Shown: in pieces, positions 25,206 to 58,947 of the stretch
Layout: every line of letters begins with the position of its first letter
Numbering within the stretch: the stretch's first letter is position 1
The notes under the pieces: generated by a model
What the model was told of the DNA's origin: nothing
The model's input: only the letters and a program-made list of their open reading frames with translations
Databases searched by the model: none
Assembly (NCBI RefSeq): GCF_015644725.1
Contig: NZ_CP064795.1
Location: 2,354,501-2,418,500, forward strand
Reading direction: 5' to 3'
Source of the DNA: Salinimonas marina
Lineage (GTDB): Bacteria; Pseudomonadota; Gammaproteobacteria; Enterobacterales; Alteromonadaceae
DNA: 64,000 nucleotides
Translations under genes and position numbers: made by a program

Positions 25206-25888
25206 ATGCGTGCCAGCCTGATCTGGGATCTCCCCACCCGTTTTTTTCATTGGCTATTGGTTGCTGGTCTGGTGGTGCAGTATGTAACGGCGGAATGGCT
25301 GGACGATGCCATGCAGTGGCATTTTTACGCCGGGTACTTTTTATTGGGACTTATTATCTTTCGTTTTGGCTGGGGTTTTCTGGGCCCCGAATATGCCCGC
25401 TTTCGTTCATTTGTGACCGGGCCGGCGCAGGTCTGGCGCTATTCCCGGCAAATACTCAGTCGGCATAGCGCCCCGTATACCGGCCACAACCCTTAGGCGG
25501 ATGGATGGTGTTGATTATGCTGATGCTGGTCGCATTACAAGCCGCCAGTGGCTTATTTATGACCGATGATATTTTTATGCAGGGGCCCTGGTATCATGTG
25601 GTCAGTGAACAGACACAATCGCAGATGAGCTTTATTCATCATCAAAGCTTCAATGTGTTATTGGTGATTATTGCATTGCACATTGCCGCAATTGGCTTTT
25701 ACACCTTCTATAAACGTCAGCCGTTGGTCGCTTCGATGTTTCATGGCAAGAAGGTCACCCCTTCCACTCCCATCCCATCGTCCAGAATCATTCTGGCAGT
25801 GGTGCTGGCGCTGCTCAGTGCGGCCCTCACCTACTATATTGTGGCGGTAGCACCCGGCGCTCCCGTGGAACAGGAAGTGTATTATTAA
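25206..25888 (+). CDS. Cytochrome b561-type membrane protein (apparent frameshift)
   Basis: The first frame (25206-25496) reads WDLPTRFFHWLLVAGLVVQY...HFYAGYFLLGLIIFRFGWGF...TGHNP then stops. The next frame continues directly as GGWMVLIMLMLVALQAASGL. Adding one C at the CCC of 25490-25492 joins them into 227 residues with four transmembrane helices and the haem-ligand histidines of the Ni/Fe-hydrogenase b-type cytochrome family (FHW; WHFYAGY; HHQSFNVLLVIIALHIAAI). It would carry electrons between the quinone pool and a periplasmic partner. A cytochrome c' gene faces it downstream and may be that partner. Likely functional with a base-call error. Confidence 0.85.
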
Positions 25889-26200
25889 TCAGCTCATCTG
25901 AGTAACGCGCCCACCCTAGCTAAGTATAACTTGTCCTGGCACCGTTCCGGTCTGTGGACTATGAAGGGGTCGGGCTTAGAAGAAGCCCTAAAATACACGG
26001 TATCAGCGGCGAGCCGGCAGTAATATCAGGGCGCGGGACCTGGCAGTAATATCAGGGCGCGGGACCTGGCACCCACCATCCATAGCGCTATTGCTACACT
26101 TAATGGGCCACCAACGTTACCCTAAGCCAGTACCAGCGAATAGGCTACGATGCCAACTTTTGTAGTGAGCGGGGGGCTGTTAATGGATAGCTAATCCTGG
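25889..26200. other. Intergenic region between cytochrome b561 and cytochrome c' genes
   Basis: There is no gene. It contains a tandem duplication described separately and a weak hairpin (GGGCTT/AAGCCC near 25974-25989) without a T run. Confidence 0.5.
26019..26070. repeat. Exact tandem duplication of a 26-bp unit
   Basis: Two identical 26-bp units lie head to tail at 26019-26044 and 26045-26070. The unit contains GCGCGGGACCTGGC. Confidence 0.95.
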
Positions 26201-26226
26201 AAAAAAAGAGCCGGCGAGTGCGGCTC
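26201..26226 (-). terminator. Terminator of the cytochrome c' gene
   Basis: GAGCCG (26208-26213) pairs with CGGCTC (26221-26226) and is followed on the minus strand by seven T residues, 12 bases past the stop. Confidence 0.8.
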
Positions 26227-26238
26227 CGGTATCAAAAA

Positions 26239-26718
26239 TCAGTCAGCTTTGTAATCGTCATGACACGATTTGCAGGTACTCCCCACTTTACCAATAGCAT
26301 CACGATAGGCTGATTCGTCGCCTGCTTTGGCAACTTTCTGTAAATTCGCGGTTGCCGTCAGGAGATCCTGAATTTTGCTTTCCACATCGGCATAATTGTC
26401 CCACAACTCAGGCTTAGCATGGGTGTGAACATCATATTCACGGGTATCTACTTTAAGGTAATCTGACACCATGTTGGCCAATTGTTCCATACGCATACCA
26501 TTGGTTTGCATTACTTCGGCATCGTATTCGATGGCGCCCTTGGCCATCCCACCCAGCGGGGCCATGTTGCTTTTCATCAGCATAAAAATTGCCTCGCGAT
26601 ATTCACTGTATGCTTCAGCATGCTTTTGTGATTTTGCCAGTTCGGGGGTGGCTGCCAGGGCGGCGCCACTTAGTATTGCGCCGCTGCAAAATACCGCCAG
26701 GCGGGTAGTGAATTTCAT
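26239..26718 (-). CDS. Cytochrome c' (monohaem, periplasmic)
   Basis: The 159-residue product starts at ATG 26718, eight bases after GGAG; a TTG two codons earlier is less likely. A signal peptide (AVFCSGAILSGAALAATPE) is followed by a four-helix protein whose haem motif CKSCHDDYK lies at the extreme C-terminus, which defines the cytochrome c' fold. Such proteins bind NO or act in electron transfer. The convergent cytochrome b561 gene suggests a shared redox role. Confidence 0.9.
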   Translation of the reverse strand: MKFTTRLAVFCSGAILSGAALAATPELAKSQKHAEAYSEYREAIFMLMKSNMAPLGGMAKGAIEYDAEVMQTNGMRMEQLANMVSDYLKVDTREYDVHTHAKPELWDNYADVESKIQDLLTATANLQKVAKAGDESAYRDAIGKVGSTCKSCHDDYKAD

Positions 26719-26912
26719 GCTCAAATCTCCTTATGATGTTTCAGGCTGAGTTGCCGTTTGTATACATTAATGCATCTGCTGCAAAATTGTTAATTTTTTG
26801 CGCTAGCACTTTATATGATTTAGCCCGCAAAAAGATTGGATTCAGGGTTAGCAATTTATTAAAACACCACTCATGCAGGAGGCGGGGCCAGCAAAACCGA
26901 AAGCCAGCCAAT

Positions 26913-26942
26913 AAAAAACCCTCCGGATGAGGAGGGTTTTTA
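26913..26942. terminator. Bidirectional terminator after dnaJ
   Basis: AAAACCCTCC (26915-26924) and GGAGGGTTTT (26931-26940) form a 10-bp stem with A and T tails on both sides. It lies 7 bases past the dnaJ stop on the minus strand. Confidence 0.88.
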
Positions 26943-26949
26943 TTAACGC

Positions 26950-28083
26950 TTAATTGGTGAGGTCATCAAAAAACTTTTTAACGCCGTCGAAGAAGCCTTG
27001 TTCTTTCGGCCGGTGTTTACCGGTTTCATCACCCATTGACTCATTAAGCTCTTCAAGCAGCTCTTTTTGACGGGTGGATAAATTCACCGGCGTTTCTACG
27101 ACCACCTTACACATCAGATCGCCGGTCATGCCGGTACGCACTGACTTCACGCCTTTGCCACGCAAACGGAACATACGTCCGGTCTGGGTTTCCGGTGCCA
27201 CTTTCAGTTTGACCTTGCCATCTAAGGTTGGCACCTGAAGCTCTCCGCCTAATGCGGCGGTGGTAAAGCTCAACGGCACTTCACAAAACAGGTTGTTGCC
27301 ATCGCGGGAGAAGATTTCGTGCTGCTTCACATGAGCCTGCACATACAAATCGCCTGCCGGGGCTCCTGCTTCACCTGCTTCGCCTTCACCTGCCAAACGG
27401 ATCCGGTCACCGGTATCAACACCCGCCGGAATTTTAACCGACAGGGTTTTGGTTTTTTCTACACGGCCCTGACCACGACAGCTATTACACGGATCGCTGA
27501 TGATCTTGCCTCGACCTGAACAGGTAGGACATGTTTGCTGTACCGCAAAGAAACCCTGGCGCATCTGTACCTGGCCATTACCATGGCAGGTAGGACACGT
27601 CTTAGGTGAGGTGCCGCGCTTAGCGCCTGAACCATCACACTTTTCGCATTCGACCAGGGTCGGAACACGAATCTCAACATCTTTACCGCGAACGGCTTCT
27701 TCTAACGACAACTCCAGGTTATAGCGTAAGTCGGCCCCCTGACGAGCACGAGACTGACGCCCACGGCCGCCTCCGCCAAAGATATCGCCAAACACATCGC
27801 CAAAGATATCGCCGAAATCGGCATTGCCGCCGCCGAAACCGCCGCCACCACGATTGGGGTCAACGCCTGCATGACCGTACTGGTCATAGGCAGCACGTTT
27901 TTGATCATCGGTCAGGATCTCATAGGCTTCCTGAATTTCCTTGAATTTATTTTCAAGTTCTTTATCGCCCTGGGTGCGATCCGGATGGTATTTCATCGCC
28001 AGTTTTTTGTACGCTTTTTTAATATCACGTACGCCGGCATCTCGACCCACCCCAAGCACTTCGTAGTAGTCACGTTTCGACAT
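26950..28083 (-). CDS. dnaJ: Chaperone DnaJ
   Basis: The 377-residue type I J-protein has the J-domain at residues 1-70 with the HPD motif in [10 protein letters not shown], a G/F-rich stretch ([20 protein letters not shown]) and four CxxCxGxG zinc repeats ([32 protein letters not shown]), followed by the C-terminal substrate-binding domains. It delivers clients to DnaK and stimulates its ATPase. It follows dnaK by 178 bases. Confidence 0.98.
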
Positions 28084-28185
28084 ATCGCTTACTTTTCCTA
28101 CTCGTTACCTAAGCACCCGGCCTGTGGCCCGATACTCAATATTCTTATAAATCAGTGCATTATTGTAAATGCTTTAACACAACAA

Positions 28186-28214
28186 AGGCGCAACAAGACA
28201 ATCCTGCTGCGCCT
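28186..28214 (-). terminator. Hairpin between dnaK and dnaJ, possible attenuator
   Basis: AGGCGCAACA (28186-28195) and TGCTGCGCCT (28205-28214) pair with one G-T mismatch. On the minus strand this is followed by TTGTTGT rather than a full T run. A second hairpin (ACCGGTT-type repeats near 28231-28255) lies closer to dnaK. Either could partly terminate transcription and lower dnaJ relative to dnaK. Confidence 0.45.
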
Positions 28215-28261
28215 GCACTGTTTCGTTAAACCGGCCCGAAGACCGGTTAACCGGACGACAG

Positions 28262-34300: not shown

Positions 34301-34730
34301 TAAGGCCCCCGAAACCGCAACACACACTCTGCCATTCATGCGCAATCTGAAGGTGTTGGTGGTGGAAAATGACGAACAGGTATCACAGGCTCTGAAATTA
34401 TGCTTTGAATACTGGGGGGCGCAGGTAATCTGCGTCACCGACCGACATCAGGCCACACAACACTGTCCGGAGCCTCCGGCTATTATGCTGGTTGATTATC
34501 ACTTAAACGGAAATGATCGCGGAACCAGGGTGGCTCAGGAGCTTCGGGAATTTTGGGGCCAGTCAGTGCCCGGTATCTTGAATACCGCGAATCGCGAAGA
34601 GGGTATTAAGGATGTGGCAGCACAACATGAATTGTTTTATCTGAGCAAGCCGATCAAGCCGCTGCTGCTTCGCCGCGCCGTCAGGACGCTGCTGAGCGAG
34701 TACCCGTGGGTCCCGATACCAGCTGATTAA
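31350..34730 (+). CDS. Hybrid histidine kinase with sodium:solute symporter domain (CrbS-like)
   Basis: This 1126-residue inner-membrane sensor has residues 1 to about 500 as an SSF/SLC5-like domain with 12-13 helices (LGLGVHCTSWAFFGT, LPRQFHMNFVECNGEGELRTARWLFPLYL). A linker resembling the STAC region and a PAS domain follow (HIQQGISVLDSNLALLAWND near 610). HisKA has its phosphoacceptor His in FLAAAGHDLMQPFNAA near 768. HATPase motifs are QNLLSNAVRYT, DTGPGIA and GLGLGLTIV. A C-terminal receiver has its Asp in MLVDYHLNG near 1049. This matches CrbS/MxtR-type kinases that tune acetate metabolism through acs. Its partner is encoded convergently and their 3' ends overlap by 50 bases. Confidence 0.9.
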   Translation: MLSIWSVGAIVICYLALLFVIAFAGDKWLRANQQHPVLYSLGLGVHCTSWAFFGTTTQAAQFGWAVVPTYVGIMLVMTFMFPVLLRINRLCQQHSVSSLADFIALKYQGAHFIAALITLLCFIGVIPYLALQLDAITKSINLLAPHQEQQSHTVGLYVAALMALFAILFGTRTLSLKDKHPGLLLTIAVESVIKLAGLSIVGIYVCYSLFDGPLDLFAQAGAHPVAREVIYADSSLWVYLSHILLGVCSMFILPRQFHMNFVECNGEGELRTARWLFPLYLLAITVFVLPIALAGSMLLDTGSVNSDTFVLALPLFAGNESVALAAFIGGLSATSSMIIVATLALGIMIANNLITPLWLKIRLAKHSVGSMQSSGILTIRRITVLVVLSVAFWYHLNISQTAPLVKSGIVAIALLAQMLPTMLFGLYWSRSTVTAASLAMLAGLCCWIVWLLYPSLLASYYFNPAPSDAELGLGFVLSLLVNCLTFIGVSLLTPARSDQPGFANNAPLIPELAIRIADLMQLTARLLEPREQDRLIAQLSAQPSQGFASAALLQNVEHRLAAQVGTPSARVLLSAIAQTSHTELPELVDWVEEASQTFQFNHEVLQSSVQHIQQGISVLDSNLALLAWNDRYIDLFNYPANFLHSGMPITSLLQFNARRGLLGNSQDVDAEIAKRVAYMKAGRPYKYLRKQPDGRAIELNGSPLPGGGYVTTYSDITEYTLTQEALEQAKNALEARVAARTEQLHHARLEAEQANESKTRFLAAAGHDLMQPFNAATLFASMLAQKTKGTELETLSKGVTTSLSSAESLLSMLLDMTRLESGVLKPQLSRFALTDILEPLYREFTVISEQKGLHLSYMPTTVWVYSDRRLLRRIVQNLLSNAVRYTNSGKVLLGVRRRCADQAEIWVCDTGPGIAAEKQQEVFAEFHQLDSQHNNPGLGLGLTIVDRMSGLLEHPVGLFSKPHQGTRFTLSVPRVSGTATPAPNKAPETATHTLPFMRNLKVLVVENDEQVSQALKLCFEYWGAQVICVTDRHQATQHCPEPPAIMLVDYHLNGNDRGTRVAQELREFWGQSVPGILNTANREEGIKDVAAQHELFYLSKPIKPLLLRRAVRTLLSEYPWVPIPAD

Positions 34731-35339
34731 ACAACACCCCGGCCTGAGTGCGATTAACCACATCAAGCTTTCGCAGTACTGCAGAAACATGCTGTTTAAC
34801 GGTAGACTCGGAAATATCCAGCTCATACGCAATCTGTTTGTTGAGCAATCCATCCGCCAGCATTTTCAGCACCCGAAACTGATGGGGGGTCAACAGGGAA
34901 AGACTTTTAGCGAAGCGGCTTTCTTCCTGACTCAATTCGTCAGGCGAGAGTAAGCCCGGTGGCACCCATATGTCGCCGTCCATAATCTGCCGGACCGCCG
35001 CGGTGATGTTATCCAGTGAGGTAGATTTTGGAATGTAACCACTGGCCCCATTTCCATCACCCGTTTAATCAGACCCGGATCTTCTTCGGCTGACACCACC
35101 ACCACCAGCAGCTGATCGTGTTGCGTCAGAAGCTGAGCCAGGCCCGAAAGCCCCTGATTGCCGGGCATGTTCAGGTCCAGAAACACCAGCTCAATGGCGG
35201 CATTTTGTGCCAGCACCTGACAGGCTTCGTCGAGGCTGGCCGCTTCATGCAATGCCCCCTGAACAATCGTACCCAACGCCTGCTTCATGGCAGCCCTGAA
35301 GAGGGGGTGATCATCAGCAATCAGTACCTGTGTATGCAT
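34681..35339 (-). CDS. LuxR-family response regulator (CrbR-like), apparent frameshift
   Basis: The receiver half (from ATG 35339, THTQVLIADDHPLFRAAMKQ-like start, phospho-Asp in LVFLDLNMPGNQG) runs into a false frame after RVMEMG. One extra base in the CCCC run at 35046-35049 restores ASGYIPKSTSLDNITAAV and joins the NarL/LuxR helix-turn-helix half (LTPHQFRVLKMLADGLLNKQ, ESTVKQHVSAVLRKLDVVNR). The repaired protein has 219 residues, normal for the family. Likely phosphorylated by the convergent symporter-fused kinase. In Vibrio and Pseudomonas the equivalent regulators activate acetyl-CoA synthetase genes; here the neighbouring 3-hydroxybutyrate locus is a plausible target. Confidence 0.85.
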
Positions 35340-35558: not shown

Positions 35559-37887
35559 TTAAAAACGGTAGCCCACGGTCAGATGGACGGTGCGGGGATC
35601 GCCATAGTAACCAATCAAGGTGGTATCGTTCCCCAGCCCCGGACCAAAGCTGCCATCCTCATTACGGGTCACAAAATCATAGCCCCCACAAGGTATTCTT
35701 CGTCGGTCAGGTTTTTCAGGTGCAGGCCGCCATACCACTGGCCCTCCACGCTTTCCCAACCCAGGCTCAGATTCAGCAATCCGTAGCCATCTTGTTGAAT
35801 CAGATCGCTGGTCTCAAAAATAAGATAATCATCGCGATAATAGTAGTTGGCATTAAAGGTAAAGAAACCATAGCTGGTGTCCATGCCATAATTGGCCGCC
35901 AGGTTAAGGGTGCTTTCCGGGGTGCTGGCCAGCCCGATTAGTGGCGGTACCGCATTGTTTTTCTTGATTTCAAAATCAATATAGCCATAGGCAATATCAA
36001 AGGTCAGATTATCTGTTGCCACATATGTGGCTTCTAGCTCAAGGCCTTTGGCCGCCGTTTCGGCAGCATTACGCAGACGTTGCTGCAGCGCGGTGGGATC
36101 GTCCGTGCTTCCTTCAATACCAATATACTGGCGGTCTTTGTGATCGTAGGAAAACACGGTGGCGTTCACCCGTAACGCGTCACTGAGATCGCTTTTGATA
36201 CCCAGCTCGAATGAATCAACCACTTCGGGACTCACACCCGGCTCATTCACCGTAGCTCGCGGGTTGAACGTTCCCGACTTAAAGCCCTGAGCATAGCTGG
36301 CAAAGAGCATAAGATCGGGGCTGAACTTATACTCAACGCCCACCCGTGGCGTAAAGCGCGACCAGCTTTCAGTGGCCGGGGCATCCAGCAGACCATCATT
36401 ATCGGAATCGCTGCCCAGTACCTGCGGGATCACCACCTCATCCGGGCGTACAAACCCATCTATCCAGCCACTTTCAGGGTATAGGTTGGTTAAAACCGTA
36501 CCGTTGTAAACCGTGGCTTGCTTTTCTTCATCGGTAAATCGGGCCCCCAGCGAGACCGATAACTGCTGACTGATATCATAATTCAACTGCGCATAGCCGG
36601 CCCAGCTTTCACTGTTATTGCAGCCTGAAACTTCCCGGGTAAAGCCCGGCGTGCCTTCAGGAAAAATACCCAGCGCGGCAAAGTCGCGTCCCAATACCCC
36701 TAAAACCGCATCAAACACCCCGCAAGACTCACCCTCGTAGTAATACAGGCCACTGACCACATTAAAGTCCTGACCGGTATAGTTGGCCTGCAATTCATGG
36801 GTGTCGTTATTGTCTTCATAGATGGCCGGTACATCAAAAATATCCAGCTGAGTGTTGTCAAAGTCGATATTAGTAGGCGAATAACTGTCGCGATGTGAAC
36901 CAATGTATTTTAACTGTAATGCATCCGAAACATCATAGCGCATCATCCAGCTATAGCCCTCCAGTTCTACTTTATTGCTGGTAGGCAAACTGGTGTAGGA
37001 ATCAAACACTGAGTCAGGTTGTGGGGCCTCGGTGCGAAGACTGGGTAGCAAGCGGTACCCGCCTTTGGAATTGGAGTCATCTTCGGTTTTGTCCCAGCCA
37101 AAGCGCAGGAAAAGATTATCGGTCGGATGGATTTCCAGGGTTAGCCGGGCGGCCCACAAATCTTTGTTGTAGTTTTCACGATCCTGACCCGGCTGGGCCG
37201 AGACCAGAAACTCACCAAAGCCGTCGCGATTAAGATTGGCATAACCAAATCCCAGATACACCGTATCTTCCATCAGCGGGTACTGACCGGTTATTTTCAC
37301 ATCCCGCTGACTGTAACTTCCTACCGTCCCCTGAAGATTCAGTTGCGGGTCACCGGTCATCTCTTTGGTAACATACTTAACCGCGCCGCCAATGGTGTTT
37401 TTGCCATAAAGCGTGCCCTGGGGGCCTCGTAATACTTCAATACGCTGCACATCGAGTAAGTCCATAACCGCCCCCTGGGGCCGCGCTATATACACATCGT
37501 CAACATAAATGCCGACACCCGGCTCATACCCCACAGCGGATCTTGCTGGCCCAGACCCCGGATGAATGCGGTTAGCGTGGAATTCGTGCCCCGGCTGGTT
37601 TGCAAGGTGGTGTTGGGAGAAAATTGCTGTACTTCAGTCAGTACGCTGATGCCTTTTTCGGTGAGTTCGGCAGCCCCAATTGAGGTGATGGCCACCGGTA
37701 CTTCCTGCAGGGTCTCCACCGTTTTACGGGCGGTGACTTCTATTCTTTCCAGCTTGCCTTTTTCTGGCTCTGCGGCTGCATTATTCTGTTGCGCCGCAGC
37801 AAGAGGCGTCCAGCTGCAGGCAGCAGCTACGGCGATTGCGCACAATGAACGCTGGCATGGCCGGGTAGTTCGGTAGATATGTTTCAT
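35559..37887 (-). CDS. TonB-dependent outer-membrane receptor (two apparent frameshifts)
   Basis: Three consecutive frames join into 776 residues when one base is added at CCCC 37529-37532 and one at CCCCC 35683-35687. The signal peptide (CAIAVAAACSWTPLAAAQQ) is followed by the plug domain (IEVTARKTVETLQEVPVAIT, AFIRGLGQQDPLWG joined to YEPGVGIYVDDVYIARPQGA, and VEVLRGPQG-type LRGPQGTLYGKNTIGGAV). A 22-strand barrel ends in HLTVGYRF with terminal Phe. It is divergent from the GntP permease gene across a strong palindrome, so it probably imports a ligand for the 3-hydroxybutyrate locus, perhaps an oligomer. The ligand is inferred from context only. Confidence 0.87.
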
Positions 37888-40618: not shown

Positions 40619-41610
40619 ATGAACAAAACCCTAATAGCCATTGCCTGTAGTTTGGTCACTATGCCGGTTATGGCCAAAGAACTTACCCTTACCGCAGATG
40701 CTATCACAGTGTCAGGCTTATCCTCGGGAGGCTACATGGCGAATCAGTTTCACCTGGCCTACAGCGATCGGGTAGACGGAGCGGCCATTATCAGTGCCGG
40801 GCCGTTTTATTGTGCTCAAAATGATATTACGGTGGCGCTGGGGGCTGTGTCGATAAGACCGCCGACACCACTGATATCAATCAGCTTAATGCCCATGTTG
40901 AACAGCTGGCCGCGGCGGGCAGACTGGCCCCGCTGAGCGAGCTTAAAGACGACAAAGTCTGGTTGTTTCATGGCGCCCGCGATCAGAAAGTGGCTGAAGC
41001 GGTCACTACCTTGCTGTACCAGCAGTACCAGCGGTGGATCAACCCTGACAATCTTCGCTATATAAAAGACAAACCCTTTGGCCACGTGTTCCCTACCCTG
41101 AACCAAGGCGAAGGGTGCGCCGCGTCCAGCAGCCCCTATATTGGCAACTGTAATTATGATGCTGCCGGTGCAGCCTTGCAGTTTATGTACGATGACCTGG
41201 CAGAGCCTGCCAAGACCCTGGCCGGCAAAATTATCAGTTATGATCAACACGCCCTGGCTGGCTCACAAGCCGATACCCTGGCTCAGACAGGTTATGCGTA
41301 TGTGCCCCAAAGCTGCGCCGAGGGGGCTGAATGCCGGGTACATATTAGTTTTCATGGCTGTAATCAGTATGCTGAGGCAGTAGGTAAAGCCTACGTGGAG
41401 CAAACAGGTTTAAACCGCTGGGCCGAGACCAACAATATGGTGGTGTTTTATCCGCAAACACGAAAATCTCTATTTATGCCTTTAAACCCACAGGGTTGCT
41501 GGGATTGGTGGGGCTACACGGATGAAAATTATGCCACCCGGGAGGGCGCGCAAATTAATGCGGTGATGGCCATCGTGGATGCGTATATCAAACAACAGGA
41601 GTCATTATGA
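40619..41610 (+). CDS. Secreted PHB depolymerase-family esterase (apparent frameshift)
   Basis: Two frames join into 330 residues if one G is added to the run at 40840-40844, giving DITVALGGCVDKTADTTDIN. The signal peptide is TLIAIACSLVTMPVMAKE. The nucleophile motif is VSGLSSGGYMANQFHLAYSD, the acid lies in WLFHGARDQKVAEA and the catalytic His region is VHISFHGCNQYAEAVG. Cysteines (YCAQND, GCVDK, GNCNYD) suggest disulfides in a secreted enzyme. It would cut polyhydroxybutyrate or its oligomers to 3-hydroxybutyrate. Its end overlaps the dehydrogenase start (ATGA), so translation is coupled. Confidence 0.87.
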
Positions 41611-43505: not shown

Positions 43506-44160
43506 ATGATTCAGATCAGGGACCTGGTAAAGCAATACCCTCAAACCGCCGCTCCAATTATCGATAAGCTGTCGTTAGAGGTCGAAAAAGGTGCATCGGT
43601 AAGTATCCGGGGGCCTCTGGCTGTGGCAAGTCTACCTTGCTAAGCCTGATGGCCGGCTTTGAACCTGCTGATGCCGGACAAATTCGCATTGGCGCCGCCA
43701 CCCTGCCTTTTGCCAGTGCTAAACAGGGCGATGCGTTTCGCCGCAACGAGTTGGGGGTGATTTTTCAAAGTTACAACTTACTCGACTGTTTGAATGTGTG
43801 GGACAACATTGCGTTTACCGCCCGCTTAAAAGGTGTAACCGATAAGGCGTATCTGCGCCGGTTGATGACCATGCTTGGTATCGTTGAGCTTAGTAAAAAG
43901 CCCGCCAGTGCCCTGTCGGGCGGCGAGCAGCAGCGGGTCGCCATTGCCCGCGCGCTGGCGCACCGTCCGGCGGTGGTGCTGGCCGACGAACCCACCGGCA
44001 ATCTGGATGAAACCACCAGCGAAAGGGTCACCCAGGCTTTGTATACCACCTGCATTGAGCTGAACACGACACTGGTGGTGGTCACCCACAGTAATGAGGT
44101 GGCTGAGCAGGCCAGCCGCCCCTATGGTTACGCCACGGCGTATTACACCACCATCCATGA
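43506..44160 (+). CDS. ABC transporter ATPase (AttE/LolD-type), two apparent frameshifts
   Basis: ATG 43506 opens [20 protein letters not shown]. Adding one G at 43609-43613 restores the Walker A as [20 protein letters not shown]. Further motifs are [16 protein letters not shown] (Q loop), [20 protein letters not shown] (signature), [13 protein letters not shown] (Walker B) and [13 protein letters not shown] (switch His). Adding one C at 44119-44122 restores a normal end at 44160 that overlaps the permease start (ATGA). The 218-residue size then fits the MacB/LolD group that powers FtsX-type exporters. Operon with the permease and AttH-like lipoprotein. Confidence 0.87.
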
Positions 44161-46684
44161 ACAGGCCATCCATGCGCATGTTAGCAAGAGCCTGGCTGGT
44201 GGCATCGGTGATGTTGGCCACCGCCCGTAATAAGCCCTGGCAACCATTGCTGATTATACTGGCGGTGATGGTCGCTACCGGGGGTTTTTCTTCCGTATTG
44301 CTTATCAACGAAGGCGCGCGTCAGGGCGAACTGGGCCGCTCAGAAGCATCAATATTCAATGGCGCCGCCATTGTTGCACGAACCTCTGATAAGCCCCTGA
44401 CCCGGCGCGACTACGCCGAGCTACGCCGGGCCGGCTTTACCGGGTTGGTAGCGATGGCTCAACAAACAGATACCCTTGCATGCACCACTGCGGCCAAAGC
44501 TGCCGACGTATCTGCTGTTGATGCTACTACCTCATCGCACTCCTTAACCCTGTTAGGGGTGGATATGCTGGCCCTGTCTTCCTCATCGCTGCTAAAAGAC
44601 ATGCAAGCCGCCTTGGCTCCAGGTACCGGCACGACCGGCTCTTCATCAGCTACGACCATGGCCACGGCAATCAGCTATGCCCATCCGGAACTGGCTGACA
44701 AGCTCGTGTGCGACGCGGGGGTATCCCGAAGCCGGGGCGTGAAATTGTCTTCGCCGCTGGCAGTGAGTCAGCTGCCTGCGGATACCCTGGTTATGTCGCT
44801 GCGGGCTTTTTATACCCGGACCACCACCTTACAAAATACCCCGCTCAAGGCTCTGCTCATTTCCAGGCCGCTAAGCGAGAGTCGTATACGCGACTTAAAG
44901 CATCAACTGCCTGCGCATTTGCAGTATCAGCCAGCGCCAGTAACCACGAGTAACGGCACGCTGGCAAAAAGTTTTCAGTTAAATCTGTGGGCCATGGGGG
45001 TGCTGATGGGCGTAGTGGCGTTGTTTATTGTGTTAAACGCGTTAACGCTGATGTATCGGGCCCGGTTGTTTTTTATTCTGCGCCTACGTCAGCTGGGGGT
45101 AAGCAAAGCCAGCCTGTTGCTGGCGCTGATGAGCGAGCTGGCGTTGTATTGCATTATTGCCGCGCCCCTGGGGGTGCTCGCGGCGGTGATGCTCACCCGG
45201 CAGCTGACGCCGGTGCTCAAATCCACTTTTAAAGGGTTGCTCGACAGTGCATTTGTCGCCCCTCCCCCGCTGTTAACCGAGATGATGAGCGGGGCTTTTA
45301 TCGCCAGCTTCGCAGCCCTGGCAGTGTTTTTTGTGATCCCTGCGCGGCAGCTTTCCGGCGCATTACTGGCCTCCCAAACTCGCCACCAGCCACTGTCACT
45401 GGCCGCCCGCGGCATTATCACCCTAATCGTGGTGAGTCTGGTGAGTGTGGGGCTGGCAATAGCAAACTCCACCATCACGGCGCTGCTGGCCGTAGCCGGT
45501 GTATTACTCGGGGGTTGTGGCATTATTGTACTGTGGCTGCCGGCCTTTAGCGCACTGATAAGCAAGCTTACGCCCGCTTCCCGGCCCCTGCTTAGTTATG
45601 TGGCCGCCAGTACCCATCAATTATCCTTTAAAAGTCGCCTGTCGGTCTGTGCTTTTTTTATTGCGCTGGCGGCCAATATTGGCATGAATGTCATGACCGA
45701 CAGCTTCAGGCACGCCACCGAAAGATGGTTGCAACAACGGCTGGCCGCGCCGGTGTATTTGTACGCAGAGGAAAAACCTTCCGCCGACATGATTGCCAAG
45801 CATATTGATGCCCGTCACTTATATCGGGGCACTACCATGGTCAGCCAGCAGCGGGTAACGGTGCGCAGTTACGCGACCGACGAGACGGCCCGCGACAGTC
45901 TGACGCTGGATAAGCTGGTCCCGAGGGCTGGTCATTGTTTGCAACAAATAAAGCAGTATTTATCAATCAGCAGCTGGCCTTTCGCCAGCATCTTAAGCTC
46001 GGGGACAGACTGACCCTGGGGCCGGTATACACGCAAAACCTCCAGGCACCGGCGATGCCCAAGTCTGCGACCTACACGGTTGCCGCCATTTATCCCGATT
46101 ATGGCAATCCCGACAGCCAGCTATTGTTGCCCTTCAGCACGTTTTCGCCCGATACCGGCTATGCCGGGGTTACGGCTTTGTATGGGGCAGCAAAATCCGA
46201 TCTGGCGCGGCTGGCCAGCCTGGGGGAGGTGTATGCCTCTTCACAGCTGTTGAAAAAATCGATGCAGACATTCGATCGTACCTTTGTGGTGACTGATGCA
46301 CTGAATATCGCTACCTTGCTGGTGGCGGGAATGGCATTTGCCGTATCGGTTAGCGTGATCACCCTGGACCTGCGTCCACAGCTTAATGTGTTACGAACCA
46401 TGGGAGTAGCACAGTTGCAGGTTAAAGCCATGCTGACCGCACAGTACATGTTGCTGTGCTTGGTCACCGCGTTACTGGCGCTGCCATTCGGCATCCTGCT
46501 GGCATGGGTCTTTATCAATATGGTTAACCGATTTGCGTTTTTCTGGGTGTATCCCATGCAGGTTTCAGTAATGGTATTGCTAAACAGTCTGGCGCTAAGT
46601 TTATTCGTGGTGTTGATCATTTTACTGCTGCCGATCGCCAGAATAGAAGGCAAGGTCGACTTGCGTCAGGAGACCCCTTTATGA
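44157..46684 (+). CDS. FtsX-type ABC transporter permease (apparent frameshift)
   Basis: The repaired product has 842 residues after adding one C at 45920-45922, where VP joins EGWSLFATNKAVFINQQ. It starts at ATG 44157 ([20 protein letters not shown]) in overlap with the ATPase. It has an N-terminal helix, a periplasmic domain, a first group of helices near residues 275-430, a second periplasmic region and a final three-helix FtsX domain (ITLDLRPQLNVLRTMGVAQL). This duplicated layout resembles AttF/AttG-like permeases in one chain. The exported substrate is unknown. Its stop overlaps the next start by 4 bases. Confidence 0.84.
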
Positions 46685-47748
46685 GCATGCGTGTTACGCT
46701 CTTCTGCCTGGTGCTGCTGTTAACCGGATGCACAGAACCCGCGCCGCGTACCAGTTTGTTTAACGACACCTCAGCGCCGGCAACGACCGCCCGGGTAACC
46801 CCGGAAAATCCGGTGAAGCTACCAGATGATCACGGCGCGCATCCGCAGTATCAGCTTGAATGGTGGTATCTGACCCTGGTATTGCAAGATGAACATCAGA
46901 CCCCTTATGGGGCGCAATTTACCCTGTTTCGCTTTTTAACCAATCCGCCTTATGACAGTGACTGGGCTGATGCGCAGCAGTGGATGGGTCATGTTTCGTT
47001 GCACAGCCCCGAAGACCATGTTTTCAGCGAACGTTTTGCCGCTGGTAAGGTCGGCACAGCCGGTATTACGGCATCCCCCTTTAGCGCTTTTATAGATGAC
47101 TGGTTGTGGCAGGCTGAAGGGACGGCCCCCTTCCCCTCCACGTTACAGCTCAAGGTAGATGATGACACCCGTCTGTCTTTATCCATGGCCAGTCAGGGTC
47201 CTTACATTGCCCACGGGCAGCAGGGATACAGCGTAAAATCCCGAAGCCAGAAATACCGCTCGTATTATTATAGTCAGCCTTTTATTCATGCCGCGGGCCA
47301 GCTGACCCTAAATGGGAAAACAGAAAAGGTACAAGGCTCAGGCTGGTTTGATCACGAATGGTCCAGTCAGTTGGCAGATAAGGACGCGCTGGGCTGGGAC
47401 TGGTTTTCACTGCATCTGGATAACGGTGATAAGCTGATGATGTTCGCAATGCATGTCAATGACCAACCGCCATACCTCACCGGTACCTATATTACTGCTC
47501 AGGGCCGGGCGACCACCCTCAAAGAGTCGGACTTATCAATCCAGGCATTAGGTTACGAGCGGATCAATCAACGCAAGGTACCGGTAACATGGCAAATCGA
47601 CATCGCCAGGCCGGCCATGTCACTGACCATCAAACCCTTTAAGAAAGGCCAGTGGAATGCCAGCCGGTTTTCTTATTACGAAGGACGGGTAAAGGTTACC
47701 GGCAGCCATCAGGGTGATGGTTTTATGGAACTAACCGGGTATCAGTAA
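46681..47748 (+). CDS. AttH/CrtC-like lipocalin-domain lipoprotein
   Basis: The 355-residue product has a lipobox ([12 protein letters not shown], Cys about 17). The body matches the AttH/carotenoid hydratase-like family: [42 protein letters not shown] and a second half with [20 protein letters not shown]. It is translationally coupled to the FtsX permease, the same order as in attEFGH-type loci, where AttH is thought to act with the exporter on a lipophilic substrate. The last 7 bases overlap the convergent glutaminase gene. Confidence 0.86.
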
Positions 47749-48661
47749 ACCGACCAGTTAATGTGTTTAGTGAGTGAGGTTAATGCGGCCATCCCCATCA
47801 GCGAATTGCCCATGGAGTTCAGCGCCGGCGAAAATACACAGATAGAGAAGCGTCCCGGCACTACCGCAATAATACCACCGCCTACCCCACTTTTGCCCGG
47901 CAATCCTACCTGAAAAGCAAAACTTCCCGCCTCATTATACATACCACTGGTAGCCAGTAATGCATTCACCTGGCTGGTTTGTGACGGTGTCAGGATCTGT
48001 TCTTCCGCGCCTTTTGAATACCCCCGGTTGGCCAAAAAACTGCCTGCTTTGGCCAAATCTACGCAGGACATTTCCAGCGCACAATTATAAAAATAGCTGT
48101 GTAGCACCTCTTCTACTTCATTCTCGAAATTACCGAAGGCTTTCATTAAGTATGCAGAAGCGGCGTTACGGGCGCGGTATTCAAATTCAGAATCTGCCAC
48201 ATCGCGGTTAGCAGTGATTTCGTCATTTTCAGACAGTCGTCTGACAAAATCACGCATCGCCAGATGGGGGAGGCAAAACGGGACTGGTTCATGTCACTGA
48301 TCACCAGCGCGCCGGCATTAATAAACGGATTGCGCGGCACCCCATTTTCGTATTCAAGCTGCACCAGCGAATTGAAAGGCAGGCCTGAAGGCTCGCAGCT
48401 TACGCGATCCCATAGCTCCTCACCGTAATGGTTGATGGCGAGTACCAGATTGAACACTTTGGAAATACTTTGAATAGAAAATGGGACATGGGCGTCCCCT
48501 ACTGTAGATATATTCCCGTCGTTATCACAAATGGCGATGCCAAATTGCTGCGCTTCCACAGAAGCCAGTGCCGGGATATAGTCGGCCACTTTGCCCCTGC
48601 CCAGCATGGGGATTACTTCGTTGTAGATTTCATCTAACAATGATTGCATTGCCTGTGTCAT
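47742..48661 (-). CDS. glsA: Glutaminase (apparent frameshift)
   Basis: Two frames join into 306 residues, the usual family length, when one base is added in the run at 48266-48270, giving [18 protein letters not shown]. Beta-lactamase-fold glutaminase motifs are [17 protein letters not shown] (Ser-x-x-Lys), [34 protein letters not shown] and [18 protein letters not shown]. It hydrolyses glutamine to glutamate in the cytoplasm. The gene is alone and convergent to the attH-like gene. Confidence 0.9.
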
Positions 48662-48952: not shown

Positions 48953-50028
48953 TCACCGACCGCTGGCTTCAGAGGCTTGCAGGTCAAGCTCCGGCAGCGG
49001 TTCAAGTGATACCCGCTGACCGCTGCTGGCACTGCGGCGAGCTGCATCCAGAATTTGCATGACCCGCATATTATTTTCCAAAGACGAAAGATCATAAGGG
49101 CTGGGGTAATCCTGCCCTCTATTACGGCTTTTAAATAGCTGAAAGGATCATCATAGGGATATGGCCGCTCTTTCAAGATTACCCGGGTCTGGTCAAAGTC
49201 ATCGTAATCTCTGGCCGTACGCTGACGAAACTGCGTCCGATTGTCGGGGTACGATAAGATAATCGTCGCCTCATCTTCTACATCCTGATGATTGTCAGGT
49301 TGCAGTTGCTCGGTGATGGCGGTCACATGCGTCGGCATCTGGCCGTTTTTCAGCCAGGTCATTAAATTTGCACCATAACACCCAAAATCCATCAGCGCGC
49401 CGCCGCCACTTTGTGCCGGATCAAGCAGCCAGTCCAGAAATTCCGAATTAATATCAAGTTTGACCGGGCCCTTGTGTCCGTCCCGGACAATCACTTTGCG
49501 CACCGGCCCCACGGCATCGTTGTCTAACTGCTGCTTCACCCTGTGATTAGTGGGATACCAGGTAGTTTCGTAATTGGTCAACAAATGAATCTGATGTTGT
49601 GTTGCCAGCTGGTACATTTGTCTGGCCTGATTCATATTCAGCGCCAATGGCTTTTCGACCATGACATGGATGCCTCTGGGCGCTGCGGTTTGCACTACCT
49701 CCAAATGCTCGGCGATACTACCAAAAGCTGCCAGTGCTTCAGGACGGGTTTTATCCAGCATCGTAGCCATATCAGGATAAACCAGCTCCATGCTAAAATC
49801 ATGGCGTTTGGCATAGCGACGGGCCAGTGCCTTATCTGGCTCAACAATGCCACTGATAACAAAGTCTCCGCGCTTCTGGCTTTCAAATATCCAGTGAACA
49901 TGAGTATGGGTAAGCCCTACCACCCCAATATTGAGTTTCTCCTGCGCGTTGGTAGCAAATGCAAACATAAACATGGTCCAAAATATCAGGTATTTCACCA
50001 AAGGTTTCCTACTCAAAAACATCATCAC
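48953..50028 (-). CDS. Secreted Gfo/Idh/MocA-family oxidoreductase (apparent frameshift)
   Basis: One extra base at the GGGG of 49103-49106 changes the tail to GRITPSPYDLSSLENNMRVM and ends at 48953, giving 358 residues. The N-terminus looks like a Sec signal (YLIFWTMFMFAFATNAQEK) followed by the Rossmann strand LNIGVVGLTHTHVHWIF. The family motif EKPLALN and the C-terminal domain entry GGGALMDFGCYGANLMTWL are clear. Exported relatives such as glucose-fructose oxidoreductase use the Tat route with bound NADP; no twin-arginine motif is visible here. The substrate is unknown. The gene is alone between glsA and recN. Confidence 0.8.
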
Positions 50029-50457: not shown

Positions 50458-50464
50458 CCTTTCT

Positions 50465-52149
50465 ATGTTAGTGCATCTTTCGATAAAAAACTTTGCGGTT
50501 GTAAAGCAGTTGGCGGTAAATTTTGAGGCTGGCTTAACTGCCATTACCGGGGAAACCGGGGCTGGTAAATCTATCGCGATTGACGCGTTAAGCTTATGTC
50601 TGGGTGAGCGAGCCGATGCCGGCGCGGTGAGAAAAGAAGCAGCAAAAGCCGAAATTGTGGCGCACTTTTCTATTGAAAAAAACAGTGCTGCCAGGCATTG
50701 GCTTAACGAGCAGGAGCTTGATTGCGAAGACGATCCTAATGGCTGTTTTATCCGCCGGGTTATTTCACGAGAAGGTCGCTCTAAAGCCTTTATTAACGGT
50801 ACTGCTGTATCATTGCAGCAACTTAAAGCGTTGGGACAGTTTCTGTTGGCAATTCATGGGCAGAATACTCACCTTCAGTTATTAAAAGAAGATGTTCAGC
50901 GCCAGCTTACCGATAATTACGCAGGCCATGCCGGGTTAATCAAACAGGTCGCCAGCGGCTACCGCCTCTGGCAACAAAAACAATCTGAATTAAAGCATTT
51001 GCACGAACAAGCCAGAAACAGAACTGATCGGCAGCAATTGCTGGCGTATCAAGTCGAGGAGTTAAACGACTTTGCTTTGAGTGATGGTGAGTTTATTGAA
51101 TTAGAAACCGAGCATCGCCGGCTAAGTAATGGTCAGTCATTGCTTGAACAGGCTCAAACCAGCTTTTTTAACCTGTATGAAAATGATGATGGCAATGCAC
51201 TGTCGATCATTCAGACCAGTATGGACAACTTAAGCGCGCTGGAAGAGCATGATGCTACCCTCACCCCGATATTGTCGCTACTTAATGATGCGGTCATTCA
51301 GGTGGAGGAAGCATCTCAGGAACTGCGGGCCTATTGTGATGCACTGGAAATCGATCCCTTGCGTTTACAACAGGTCGAATCCCGCTACAGCAAAGCGATG
51401 GAACTGGCCCGCAAGCACAATGTCGAGCCAGAAGAACTCTATACCTTTCACCAGCAATTGTTGTTGGAATTTGAGACGCTGAATCAGCAGGAGTCGGCGC
51501 TGGAAACACTGGAAGCTGAAGTGGTGCAGGCTCAGCAGGATTATGCTGCAAGTGCTGAACAGTTATCCATGTCACGCCAGTCAGCGGCAACGGGATTTGC
51601 CGATGCGATAGAACAACAAATCAAAAAATGAATATGGCACATGCCAGAGTCTGGGTCGATGTCCAGTTTAATCCGGCAAAAACACCCACGGTATCTGGGT
51701 TAGATGAGATTACCATGAAGGTGTCCACCAACCCTGGCCAGGATCCTGATCGCCTGGACAAAGTGGTTTCCGGCGGTGAACTTTCGCGTATTGGCCTGGC
51801 GATTCAGGTCATTGCCAGCGATCACAACACCACCCCTACCATGATTTTTGATGAAGTTGATACCGGTATCAGCGGTCCCACCGCCTCCATTGTGGGCGGC
51901 TTATTGCGTTCGCTAGGTAAACAAAATCAGGTTATGTGCGTAACCCACTTACCGCAAGTGGCGGCCCAGGCACACAATCAGTTGTTTGTTACCAAACTCA
52001 CCGACGGGGAAAGTACCGAAACACGAATGCTTGCCCTGACCGAACAAGATCGGGTGGACGAATTAGCCCGATTATTGGCAGGTGACAAGGTAACGGATAC
52101 TGCGTTGGCTAATGCTCGCGAATTATTGAAATGTGTAGAAACGAACTAA
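50465..52149 (+). CDS. recN: DNA repair protein RecN (apparent frameshift)
   Basis: The first frame (from ATG 50465, VHLSIKNFAVVKQLAVNFEA) has the Walker A ITGETGAGKSIAIDALSLCL and a coiled-coil middle. It stops after EQQIKK at a run of six A (51623-51628). One more A continues into MNMAHARVWVDVQFN and the C-terminal head with DKVVSGGELSRIGLAIQVIA (signature) and MIFDEVDTGISG (Walker B). Repaired length is 561 residues against 553 in E. coli. RecN is an SMC-like protein for double-strand-break repair. The tandem LexA-like boxes suggest SOS control. Confidence 0.92.
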
Positions 52150-54773: not shown

Positions 54774-54809
54774 AAAAACCCCGCTAGTCATAGCGGGGTT
54801 TTTGTTTTT
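54774..54809. terminator. Terminator of the porin gene (bidirectional)
   Basis: AAAAACCCCGCT (54774-54785) and AGCGGGGTTTTT (54792-54803) form a 12-bp stem with A and T flanks, past the porin stop on the minus strand. Confidence 0.88.
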
Positions 54810-54839
54810 GGAATATACCATTGTCTGGCTGACTTGCGT

Positions 54840-56018
54840 TTAAAAGGAAATATCCCATTGCACACGTACGCGATTATCATCGTAAGTGTTGTTATCTAAG
54901 GCGTGCAGGTCAAATTGGGTAAAATCGACACTAACTTTGTTATAGTGACCCGCAATGAAGTAATTAACGCCGAAACTCTGCTCTTCATTTTTACGCTCTA
55001 CACCATCCCGATGCGAGGTGTAGGTTGCATAGCGACCCGCCACTTCTAATTGCTTTGGCCACCAGTCGATAATTTCATTTAAAAAGTAACCCGCTTGTAC
55101 GTAATAACCATCTAACGTTAGATCAGATACATTCTCGCTGGAAACAATCTTATCGTGATACTCGGCTTCGGCGCTGAAACCCTGATACATATAAGACAGG
55201 TCGAAGGTATATTGTCTTACTTTGGTTAATGCTTCGGTTTCTTCCCAGCGCGGTAACTGGCTACCACCGGATGAAGAAAAACGACTGTAGTCACCTTCTA
55301 CTAACGCGCGGGCAAAACCTACCGACAATGCGGGTTCTTTATGCCTGTCAATATCAGCCGTGGTCAGTTCAACACCGCCACCTAGTGGGTTCCACTGGAA
55401 GCGACCATAGTACAATGGGTCGCCGGGGCCCGACAGGCTATTACCACGTCCGGTACCAGAGCCCACTCCGGCCCAGTAATTAAAGTCAGCCATGGTGCCT
55501 TCATTCAGACGACCATACACCGCAGCCGCATTATGGCGGTCGATAGTAAACATCTTGTTTACGATTGAGCGGTCGACCAAATGCTGCTTGCCACTGCTGA
55601 TACTGCGTTCACGAGAATAGTCTAACTTCCACTGTCCGACTTTGAAGCTCAGCGCCTTGTATTTCTCGATCGCGATTCCGTAATCGATGAAATAGCCGTC
55701 ACCCACTTCAAACTGCGAGAAATACTTAAACCAGGGTTGATATAAATGCCCTTTCACTTTCAACCGAGACCGGTTCACATTGATGGTACGGTCGGTATCT
55801 GACAAAAAATCGTCCGCCTCACGCGGATCGCTGTCATAAGCGTTAGTGTAGCGCATCTGCGCCCGCGCATTAATTTTGGCGGAGGCGAATGAAGACTCAT
55901 CGCCAAATTGAATGCCTTTTCCATAAGGGAACAGATGATCTTCATCGTTAGCATTGGCAGTATATGAGCTTAATGATAACAGTGCACATGCACAGAGGCT
56001 CAGCTTGGTTTTGAGCAC
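54840..56018 (-). CDS. Phosphate-selective porin, OprO/OprP family
   Basis: The 392-residue product has a signal peptide (LCACALLSLSSYTANAND) and a 16-strand-type barrel rich in aromatic girdle residues, ending in VRVQWDISF with terminal Phe. Family landmarks are INVNRSRLKVKGHLYQPWFK, FKVGQWKLDYSRERSISS and LQVEVAGRYATY-like KQLEVAGRYATY. OprP-type channels take up phosphate or polyphosphate across the outer membrane. A Pho box 78 bases upstream of the start supports phosphate-starvation control. Monocistronic. Confidence 0.88.
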   Translation of the reverse strand: MLKTKLSLCACALLSLSSYTANANDEDHLFPYGKGIQFGDESSFASAKINARAQMRYTNAYDSDPREADDFLSDTDRTINVNRSRLKVKGHLYQPWFKYFSQFEVGDGYFIDYGIAIEKYKALSFKVGQWKLDYSRERSISSGKQHLVDRSIVNKMFTIDRHNAAAVYGRLNEGTMADFNYWAGVGSGTGRGNSLSGPGDPLYYGRFQWNPLGGGVELTTADIDRHKEPALSVGFARALVEGDYSRFSSSGGSQLPRWEETEALTKVRQYTFDLSYMYQGFSAEAEYHDKIVSSENVSDLTLDGYYVQAGYFLNEIIDWWPKQLEVAGRYATYTSHRDGVERKNEEQSFGVNYFIAGHYNKVSVDFTQFDLHALDNNTYDDNRVRVQWDISF

Positions 56019-56335
56019 AGTGTTTTCTCCCGGATGAGCTTAAACTTCAGGCTGCGCAGTGTAATGCGTCACCTTTTTCAGTCAAGAAAATTAATATGAC
56101 AGTTTTGTGACATAGCTATGTAATAGCCGGAAGATTGGGTTATTGCAACTTTAACGAAGTATTATTTAATACTTGGATCCAAACTGCAATGTTGTATCAG
56201 GTAAGCGGAAACAGCTTGCAAGATGAGTTGCTTAACGAGGTATGCTCATTTTTGCATACTCGATTAGCCCTTTTTTCCGTGATTGTGTCACACTAACGCC
56301 CTCTAGCCATCTAACTTCAAAGATACAGATAATTT
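56019..56335. other. Intergenic region between porin and TM2 genes
   Basis: This is a divergent promoter region. It contains the Pho box at 56096-56113. I see no gene. Confidence 0.5.
56096..56113 (-). promoter_or_regulatory. Pho box upstream of the porin gene
   Basis: On the minus strand the sequence reads ATGTCAC-AAAA-CTGTCAT, two 7-bp half-sites spaced by 4 bp. This matches the PhoB consensus CTGTCAT-N4-CTGTCAT at 12 of 14 positions. Confidence 0.7.
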
Positions 56336-57067
56336 ATGTTTAAGCCTGCTCAAAATGCCCCCTGTCCTACTTGCAATAGCCAGTTACCGGCCCAGGATGG
56401 CCGTTGTCCGGAATGCCAGGGTATTGCTGAGTTATTTGTTTACAAAAGTCGGGTAGCTGCCGCCACCCTGGCGTTATTTGGCGGAATGTTTGGCTTACAT
56501 CGGTTTTATCTGCGTCAGTGGCGGGCATTTTTTTACTTATTATTATGCTGGACCCCCTTACCATGGTTAGCCGGGATTATTGAATCGGTAATTTTCCTGG
56601 CTACCTCACAAAAAAGCTGGAATGCCAGATACAATCACGGCATCTGGGCTGGCCGCGAAAGCGGTAAAACACTGGCGATATTTATGGCAATAGGAATTGG
56701 GCTGCTGATCTTTGCCATTAGTCTGGTGAGCTGGCTTCCGTTTGATATGGCGAACCGGTTTATGGCCGCACAACAACAGCAACAACAAGTCATACTGGCG
56801 GGCGAACATATTGCTGAGGCCACCGAGCAATATCTGAAAACCCATCAGCAGCGGCCCGACACCCTAAGCCAGCTACAGTTAAATGAGGACATCATTAGTC
56901 CGGCAAAAGCGTTTATCCGCTTTGAACGAGGCAACATTTATTTAATGCCCGCCGGCGCCAAGACCAGCGAAGTCAGCATGGTGCCTGTGGTGTTAAAAGA
57001 TGAGGTGCTTTGGGATTGTGGCACCCCCGCCTTGCCCAAGGCGATGCTGCCCCGCCAGTGCCGTTGA
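56336..57067 (+). CDS. TM2-domain membrane protein with zinc ribbon
   Basis: The 243-residue product has an N-terminal zinc ribbon (CPTC at 10-13 and CPECQG at 24-29), then a TM2 domain (ALFGGMFGLHRFYLRQWRAF, the conserved G-HRFYLG-like turn) with two to three helices. After another hydrophobic segment near 120-140, the C-terminal half is soluble and resembles minor-pilin or secretion-type globular domains. The function of TM2 proteins in bacteria is not established. It lies just 6 bases before the acpH-like gene and is probably cotranscribed. Confidence 0.78.
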   Translation: MFKPAQNAPCPTCNSQLPAQDGRCPECQGIAELFVYKSRVAAATLALFGGMFGLHRFYLRQWRAFFYLLLCWTPLPWLAGIIESVIFLATSQKSWNARYNHGIWAGRESGKTLAIFMAIGIGLLIFAISLVSWLPFDMANRFMAAQQQQQQVILAGEHIAEATEQYLKTHQQRPDTLSQLQLNEDIISPAKAFIRFERGNIYLMPAGAKTSEVSMVPVVLKDEVLWDCGTPALPKAMLPRQCR

Positions 57068-57073
57068 TTGCAA

Positions 57074-57700
57074 ATGAATTATTTGGCACATTTGGCGCTG
57101 GCCCAACCTACCAGCGCGTCGGTTCAGGGGAATTTACTGGGCGATTTTATGCGGGGTTGTCAGCATGAACATTTTGATTTTGACGTGCAGTGCGGGTTAA
57201 ACAACCACCGTTTTGTAGACCGGTTTACCGATGAGCATGCAAAAATACGTGAGGCAAAATCGTGGTTTTCCAGCCAGCGACGCAGATTTGCCGGCATCAT
57301 TCTCGATGTTAGTTTTGATCATTTTTTGATAAGCCATTGGTCACAATTTTATACTCAGTCCTTCGAGCGCTTCTGTGAACAGCGCTATGCCCTGTTGCAG
57401 CCTGCCCTGGCGGATATGCCTTTGTCGATGCAGCGCACGGTTACAAGCATGCTGAAGCATCGTTGGCTTGATGTTTATCGCACGCCTGAAGGCCTGGCCA
57501 GGGCCCTGGATAACACCGCTGCGCGCATTCGCTTTCGGCATGCGTTTACCGGCAGCATTGATGAAGTTATGCAGCATTATGCGGCCCTTAAGCAAACATT
57601 TTTAGACTTTTACCCGCAACTGATGCAGGCTGTAGTCTCTGCAAATATAGAATCAGGCCAGGCTCACCAGCACATCAATCCCGCGCTCAAGAAAAAATAA
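57074..57700 (+). CDS. acpH: Acyl carrier protein phosphodiesterase, AcpH-like
   Basis: The 208-residue product starts at ATG 57074 (NYLAHLALAQPTSASVQGN). The family pattern GNLLGDFMRG with the acidic residue, NHRFVDRFTDEHAKIREAKS, and DVSFDHFLISHWSQF are diagnostic of ACP phosphodiesterase (DUF479/AcpH), which removes the phosphopantetheine arm from acyl carrier protein. Its 3' end overlaps the convergent DUF445 gene by 48 bases. Confidence 0.9.
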   Translation: MNYLAHLALAQPTSASVQGNLLGDFMRGCQHEHFDFDVQCGLNNHRFVDRFTDEHAKIREAKSWFSSQRRRFAGIILDVSFDHFLISHWSQFYTQSFERFCEQRYALLQPALADMPLSMQRTVTSMLKHRWLDVYRTPEGLARALDNTAARIRFRHAFTGSIDEVMQHYAALKQTFLDFYPQLMQAVVSANIESGQAHQHINPALKKK

Positions 57701-58947
57701 AATCCCGCCGATCAAGCCTCCCACAATGGTGCCATTAATACGCACTTTTTGCAGATCTTTGCCAATATTGAGCTCAATCTGTTCGGCCATTTCCCGCTCG
57801 TCCCAGTTTTCTATGGTAGTGCGAATATGACTGGTCAGAAAATCACTTACCTGCGGCCCCAAATACACGGCACTGTTAATAACCGCCTCATTCACGGTGT
57901 GATTAAGCGCCTTGTTTTCTGCCAGCGTATCACCGAATTCTTTTAACATTGTCTGCAGATGATGCCGCAAACGGCTATCCGGTTTGGCCAGATCAGCTTG
58001 CATATACCCGCGGACATCGGTTAGCACCTGCCCCATATAACCATGCAAGGTTTCGTTGTCGAGCAAAGCACGCTGCCATTGCTGAAGTTTTTCGCCGGTT
58101 TGCTCATCGTGTTCGATACGCCGAATCATCTGAGCTACGTAGCGGTCAAAAGAGCGGCGCAGTGGATGATGTGGATCCTCATTAATATCGGCTATGGTGC
58201 TGACAATCGCGCGCGTCGCGACTTGTGCGCCCTGCTCGCTCAGCCACTGGGTAGGCAGAAATTTTTCAAGCCGGCGGTATTCCGTGCGTAGCCACTGGTG
58301 CAATTTGGCGGTCATAAATTCCTGAGTTGAAGGCTGCTGCAATAAGCGTGCAGCTTTATCGATCAGCTGATCAAGCAACTCCTGATGCCGGCTCTCCCGG
58401 GTGAGCACTCGTAAGGTCCCCCGGCCAGAGGGCGTATATCCAGCTTCGATAAAATTTGTCTGACATTATGGGTCATTACATTTTGTACGGATTGGTCGCT
58501 TATCATCGACAAGGCGCCGGCGCCGGCATCACAGGCAAACACCGCCAGGCGCTTGGAGTTGGTCGGTTGTTTTAGCCAATAAGCTAAATTGTCGGCCGGA
58601 TGCGACTGTCTTACTAACTGTCCGATGGCCGCGGGGTTAAAAAACTTCTCTTTTACAAATTCGGCCAGATTCGATGCAATCCGGGATTTATTGGCCGCCA
58701 CAATATTCGTGTGTGGAATAGGATACTGAGGCGGGATGGGTTTGAATAATGCGGTGACGGCAAACCAGTCTGCCAGCCCACCCACTAAGGCGGCCTCACT
58801 GACCATCTTAAAAAATGCATTGTAAGCCAACCAGCCGGCCTGGCTAAAGCTGTGCTCCAGTAAGGTAGTGATAATAAATAGTATCGCTGCAATAAATAAG
58901 CAGCCGGCGGCCTGTTTTTTTGCACGGGCTAATTGTTGCGCTTTCAA
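57653..58947 (-). CDS. DUF445 family membrane protein (apparent frameshift)
   Basis: One extra base in CCCCC at 58418-58422 joins LDIRPLAGG to TLRVLTRESRHQELLDQL, giving 431 residues. An N-terminal helix pair (GCLFIAAILFIITTLLEHSF) and the conserved EAALVGGLADWFAVTALFKP and NIVAANKSRIASNLAEFVKE are the DUF445/YjiN signature. A long helical region and a C-terminal hydrophobic hairpin (INGTIVGGLIGGILFFLERG) follow. The function is unknown. The gene is alone on the minus strand. Confidence 0.87.

Follow-up and report, generated by a model that had tools for sequence, protein, structure and literature searches.

The window, by which we mean the whole stretch of 64,000 nucleotides that was analysed, covers bases 2354501-2418500 of a single-contig genome of 3.765 Mb, which was placed in the Alteromonas/Salinimonas group and has a GC content of about 50%. 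When 59 genomes of the genus (the window genome included) were searched, G049 and G047 were found to be the closest relatives for the protein tested, with 94% and 93%, respectively. G049 was syntenic over the greater part of the window; the blocks had nucleotide identities of 71-86%, apart from one tRNA block at 97%. Several short tandem arrays with units of 15-27 bases, some of them alike, were found at positions 1042-1888 of the window, where no long ORF is present, and six tRNA genes (Met, Leu, Gln, Gln, Met, Gln) are clustered at 3810-4440.

Ten genes of the window appeared broken. The first is a cytochrome b561-like gene on the forward strand (25206..25885; PF01292 on the G049 orthologue) with a break in the interval 25488-25495, at the run 25490-25492; a perfect 26-base tandem repeat of 2.2 copies was observed in the intergenic region after it (26016-26071). 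Two genes follow on the reverse strand, one encoding a LuxR-type response regulator (34684..35339; PF00072 and PF00196 on the orthologue) with a break at 35044-35053, and one encoding a TonB-dependent receptor (35562..37887; PF00593 and PF07715 on the orthologue) with two breaks at 35682-35693 and 37526-37532. The receptor gene (window 35589-37621) had two matches about 7 kb apart on contig 8 of G047, in blocks of 79% and 65%, indicating that G047 has a second, more distant copy of the TonB receptor. The next three genes lie on the forward strand. They encode an extracellular short-chain polyhydroxyalkanoate depolymerase-like protein (40619..41607; NF050059 on the orthologue; break at 40840-40844), an ABC transporter ATP-binding protein (43506..44160, the end being taken from the gene overlap in G049; PF00005 on the orthologue; breaks at 43607-43615 and 44117-44124) and an ABC permease-like protein (44124..46465; break at 45917-45927, where two neighbouring G/C runs fit). 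No family match was obtained on the G049 orthologue of the permease-like gene, which was named from a weak LolC/E-type match alone. Genes for a glutaminase (47745..48661; NF002132 and PF04960 on the orthologue; break at 48266-48271) and a GFO/IDH/MocA oxidoreductase (48956..49998; PF01408 on the orthologue; break near 49096-49106) were found on the reverse strand, followed by recN on the forward strand (50459..52137; break at 51618-51630, the only one in an A run) and a gene for a DUF445 protein on the reverse strand (57656..58947; PF04286 on the orthologue; break at 58415-58422). In each of the 39 other genomes searched, the open frame holding the best match to recN spans at least 555 codons, compared with 400 codons here, and the public protein P0001, of 561 residues, was 96% identical.

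The sequence-only reading had described twelve homopolymer frameshifts in these ten genes, and all twelve were borne out. When the G049 proteins were compared with the window, adjacent matches in differing frames were obtained at 11 of the 12 places, and the pipeline over all four relatives likewise gave 11 breaks in the window. The twelfth, at 44119-44122, has only 12 residues of its gene beyond it, which leaves no room for a second match; it was recovered by frameshift-aware alignment, with scores of 238 for a -1 shift, 182 for +1 and 180 without a shift (interval 44117-44124). All twelve breaks were of the -1 sense, and G049 was in frame at each. The run strings were as the sequence-only reading wrote them, eleven of G/C and one of A. 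The placement of the breaks agreed with the listed runs, except that a neighbouring G/C run was equally good at 45920 and that the best interval at 49103 was 49096-49101, the next G run, two bases off. The corrected lengths had also been noted to be multiples of three, which adds no evidence since it is implied by restoring the frame. Each of the other window genes matched by G049 stayed in a single frame; for two of these genes the match contained one stop.

Seven parts of the genome were used as targets: a 264-kb region made up of the window and its surroundings, five places far from it, and the rpoB region. The genes of G049, G047, G009 and G022 served as queries. At first 378 genes were aligned; one poor, break-free gene was then dropped, leaving 377 genes and 371 kb. 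The dropped gene was the only one aligned in one of the two terminal 20-kb stretches of the genome, and the opposite end yielded no gene. Five 20-kb stretches (from C1:800001, 1150001, 1850001, 3000001 and 3600001), for which the comparison included no syntenic stretch of a relative, gave no aligned genes and stand outside every count. In the control, each relative was the target of the same pipeline with the window-genome queries excluded. This replaced a first control with window-genome proteins as queries, which had counted their own breaks against the relatives (2 to 9 each). A homology-free hidden-Markov frameshift scan recovered 5 of the 12 known breaks, made 2 other calls in the window and was dropped for homology. 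The overall homopolymer spectrum of the window was uninformative, with no G/C-run deficit compared to the relatives.

Among the 377 genes, 45 (about 12% of those tested) carried a total of 54 breaks, whereas the controls gave 5 breaks in 753 kb (3, 1, 0 and 1 in 229, 198, 198 and 129 kb of the four relatives, respectively). The break rate was 14.5 per 100 kb here and 0.7 in the controls, a difference that excludes chance or method noise. If the sampled rate holds, we infer that the whole chromosome would hold very roughly 400 to 470 breaks. Almost every detail of the earlier observation holds, and the pattern reaches further than was stated there, across the assembly.

A Monte Carlo test over 47 bins showed mild clustering of the breaks (p = 0.017). 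It had been offered as a caveat that none falls in the first 25 kb of the window; the zero itself was seen, but it is unremarkable, since 2.1 breaks were expected there by run content (P(0) = 0.12) and 2.7 by length (P(0) = 0.07). The middle segment of the window held 11 breaks by the pipeline compared with 3.6 to 4.0 expected, and uneven read depth could be the source of this excess and of the clustering. No break was found by the pipeline in the rpoB-rpoC-fusA-tuf stretch, in which genes were named from their position and the rpoB match. The densest cluster, at G000:C1:450001-468900 (locus L153), held 10 breaks in 17.9 kb aligned, while the mean rate would give about 2.6; the gene for acetate-CoA ligase was among those broken there, and the cluster perhaps marks a low-coverage stretch.

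With frameshift-aware scoring, 47 of the 54 breaks were clear -1 shifts. Four others scored better as +1 or -2 (near C1:2336040, 458273, 2496133 and 2723016); three of these had a net shift of -2 by match geometry, possibly as two neighbouring -1 events. The remaining three were weak calls, and two of these tended towards +1. The site of a break was taken as the longest run in its interval, an attribution biased towards runs, and the 47 clear -1 breaks then comprised 39 with a G/C run of at least three, 3 with an A/T run and 5 with no run of three, including that of release factor 1, which was placed at a two-base AA. In 1000 random placements, 8.4 +/- 2.5 G/C-run intervals were obtained with a maximum of 18, compared with the 39 observed. 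The numbers of G/C runs shortened, by inferred original length, were 9/1440 for runs of four, 17/342 for five, 10/51 for six, 3/6 for seven and 0/1 for eight, so that the shortened share was 0.6%, 5%, 20% and 50% at lengths 4, 5, 6 and 7, respectively. For A/T runs the corresponding numbers were 0/2627, 1/1079, 1/312, 1/77 and 0/4, or 3/4095 overall for runs of four to seven. Shortening of G/C runs of five to seven was about 40 to 60 times as frequent as that of A/T runs of equal length.

The rRNA genes were affected as well. Absences were scored where the other copies and the G009 copies agree, leaving aside minor variation in length within variable regions and at insertion edges. Six single-base absences, all in G/C runs, were found among the four 23S copies and the three readable 16S copies. 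In the 23S rRNA they affected a CCCC in copy b, a GGGGGG in copies c and d, a GGGGG in copy d and, in copy c, the CCCC belonging to the GACCCCGTG motif, which is part of the peptidyl-transferase region. The 16S absence was in a GGGGG of copy d. Copies c and d of the 23S rRNA may truly differ from the others at the run in which both lack a base. The five G009 operons showed one single-base difference among themselves, in an A run. By length, 2 of about 107 runs of four, 2 of about 29 runs of five and 2 of 4 runs of six were shortened (run counts of one copy), which resembles the rates in genes. Intervening-sequence-like insertions of about 90-114 bases, two or three each, were also observed in the 23S genes of three operons (G000 loci L246, L247 and L248); the fourth G000 operon and the five G009 operons are without them.

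The raw break rate dropped with gene conservation: it was 0.205/kb for identities of 45-70% and 0.058/kb for those of at least 96%. The most conserved genes have fewer long G/C runs, and when G/C-run counts were used as exposure the trend was not significant (mean identity of broken genes 81.5 compared with 82.4 expected, p = 0.28). Selection as a reading of the unbroken rpoB-rpoC region was supported neither by this run-exposure test nor by the rRNA test. The genes for release factor 1 (C1:2346903-2347984) and for asparaginyl-tRNA synthetase (C1:2491020-2492413), both of which are essential in Escherichia coli, were broken here. No intact second copy of either gene was found in the genome. 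For release factor 1 the other matches were a weak one and a paralogue of 40% identity that is probably release factor 2; for asparaginyl-tRNA synthetase they were paralogues at about 30%. Internal stops were found in 18/378 genes here and 21/739 in the controls (p = 0.12). Such a stop was also present in 6 of the 45 genes with a frame break.

A sequencing consensus that undercalls short homopolymers by one base, chiefly G/C runs of 4 to 7, would shift the frame wherever the undercall falls inside a gene, and an intact gene would then appear split. Undercalling would give many more deletions than insertions, as was found in the sense of the 54 breaks, and would place events in homopolymers at a frequency rising with length, as was found in the run counts. 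It would also be indifferent to function and conservation, rRNA included, and this too agrees with the results, although the raw per-kb trend does fall. The sequence-only reading had preferred base-call or consensus error to decay, a preference supported by the -1 excess, the length dependence in G/C runs, the lack of a significant link with conservation and the effect on rRNA and on genes expected to be indispensable. Undercalling fits, and the G/C-run pattern together with the breaks in presumably indispensable genes and in rRNA argues against decay, phase variation and a mutator. The breaks are therefore very probably artefacts of the deposited assembly that arose through uncorrected homopolymer undercalling, a sequencing or consensus cause that we infer from the assembled bases. 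Almost certainly the genes are not broken in the living cell. Against this reading count the raw conservation trend, the unbroken rpoB-rpoC-fusA-tuf stretch, the mild clustering, the somewhat greater number of internal stops, the 5 of 47 clear -1 breaks without a run of three, the lack of a G/C-run deficit in the window and a published case led by A/T runs (see below).

If the frameshifts were real, the lineage would lack mismatch repair or be decaying, and slippage would have inactivated more than 10% of its genes. Slippage also gives length dependence in homopolymers, and the drop of the raw rate with conservation, the unbroken rpoB-rpoC-fusA-tuf sample and the slightly commoner internal stops would agree with it. 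However, the shifts were overwhelmingly of the -1 sense, the excess of shortened G/C over A/T runs was some 40- to 60-fold, an additional stop was present in only 6/45 broken genes, and the conservation trend was not significant with run exposure. Real decay would also be expected to spare indispensable genes, whereas release factor 1, asparaginyl-tRNA synthetase and rRNA were all affected. Real, inactivating frameshifts are thus very unlikely.

Alternatively, the shorter runs could be real but tolerated, with transcriptional slippage or translational frameshifting yielding full-length proteins. This would account for the breaks in indispensable genes, and passages of PMC3017870 on the insect endosymbionts Blochmannia and Buchnera propose that transcriptional slippage rescues poly(A/T) frameshifts there. 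As in the present genome, the Blochmannia cases described in those passages are single homopolymer frameshifts in otherwise conserved genes, replication genes included. The tracts they describe are, however, poly(A/T) in extremely AT-biased genomes and affect eight genes in one genome, whereas here short runs, mostly of G/C and now 3 to 6 bases long, are concerned in many genes and in rRNA at about 50% GC. Moreover, single-base losses in rRNA are not restorable in this way, and the relatives are almost without the trait. Such tolerance is extremely improbable, and it is scarcely credible that a bacterium carries several hundred real -1 frameshifts, those in release factor 1 and some rRNA copies included, through pervasive rescue by slippage or frameshifting. 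It is likewise hardly conceivable that the twelve include contingency loci whose phase varies through changes in run length. A few of the genes are surface or regulatory ones (TonB receptor, response regulator), but for a contingency locus a run of 3 to 6 is short, the same pattern affects rRNA, a tRNA synthetase and metabolic genes in other parts of the genome, and the relatives are in frame.

Errors of the kind to which we attribute the breaks have been described before. The parts of the Kastor paper (PMC12007338) dealing with long-read bacterial assemblies report homopolymer deletion errors, most of them after four to five equal bases, and one draft with more than 1000 frameshifted pseudogenes, most of which were gone on correction. 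In that case A/T runs had about twice the deletion errors of G/C runs, whereas G/C runs dominated strongly here, by 39 to 3. According to sections of the Homopolish paper (PMC8011154), nanopore homopolymer indels outlast read polishing and inflate pseudogene numbers (151-5298, R9.4). These errors are similar to the present ones in being homopolymer indels that make false pseudogenes, but insertions were also common in some of the tables of that paper, while nearly all shifts found here were -1.

The genome is listed as 99.95% complete in a single contig, yet about 12% of the tested genes are frame-broken, and completeness gave no warning of this. Counting shortened runs for each base and run length, as was done here, offers a way of recognising such assemblies without reads. 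An assembly-wide artefact is no biological novelty and has practical weight for users of the genome. Most of the apparent dead genes of the one-base kind in this genome are probably artefacts, and claims of gene loss, pseudogenes or recoding based on the assembly would be wrong.
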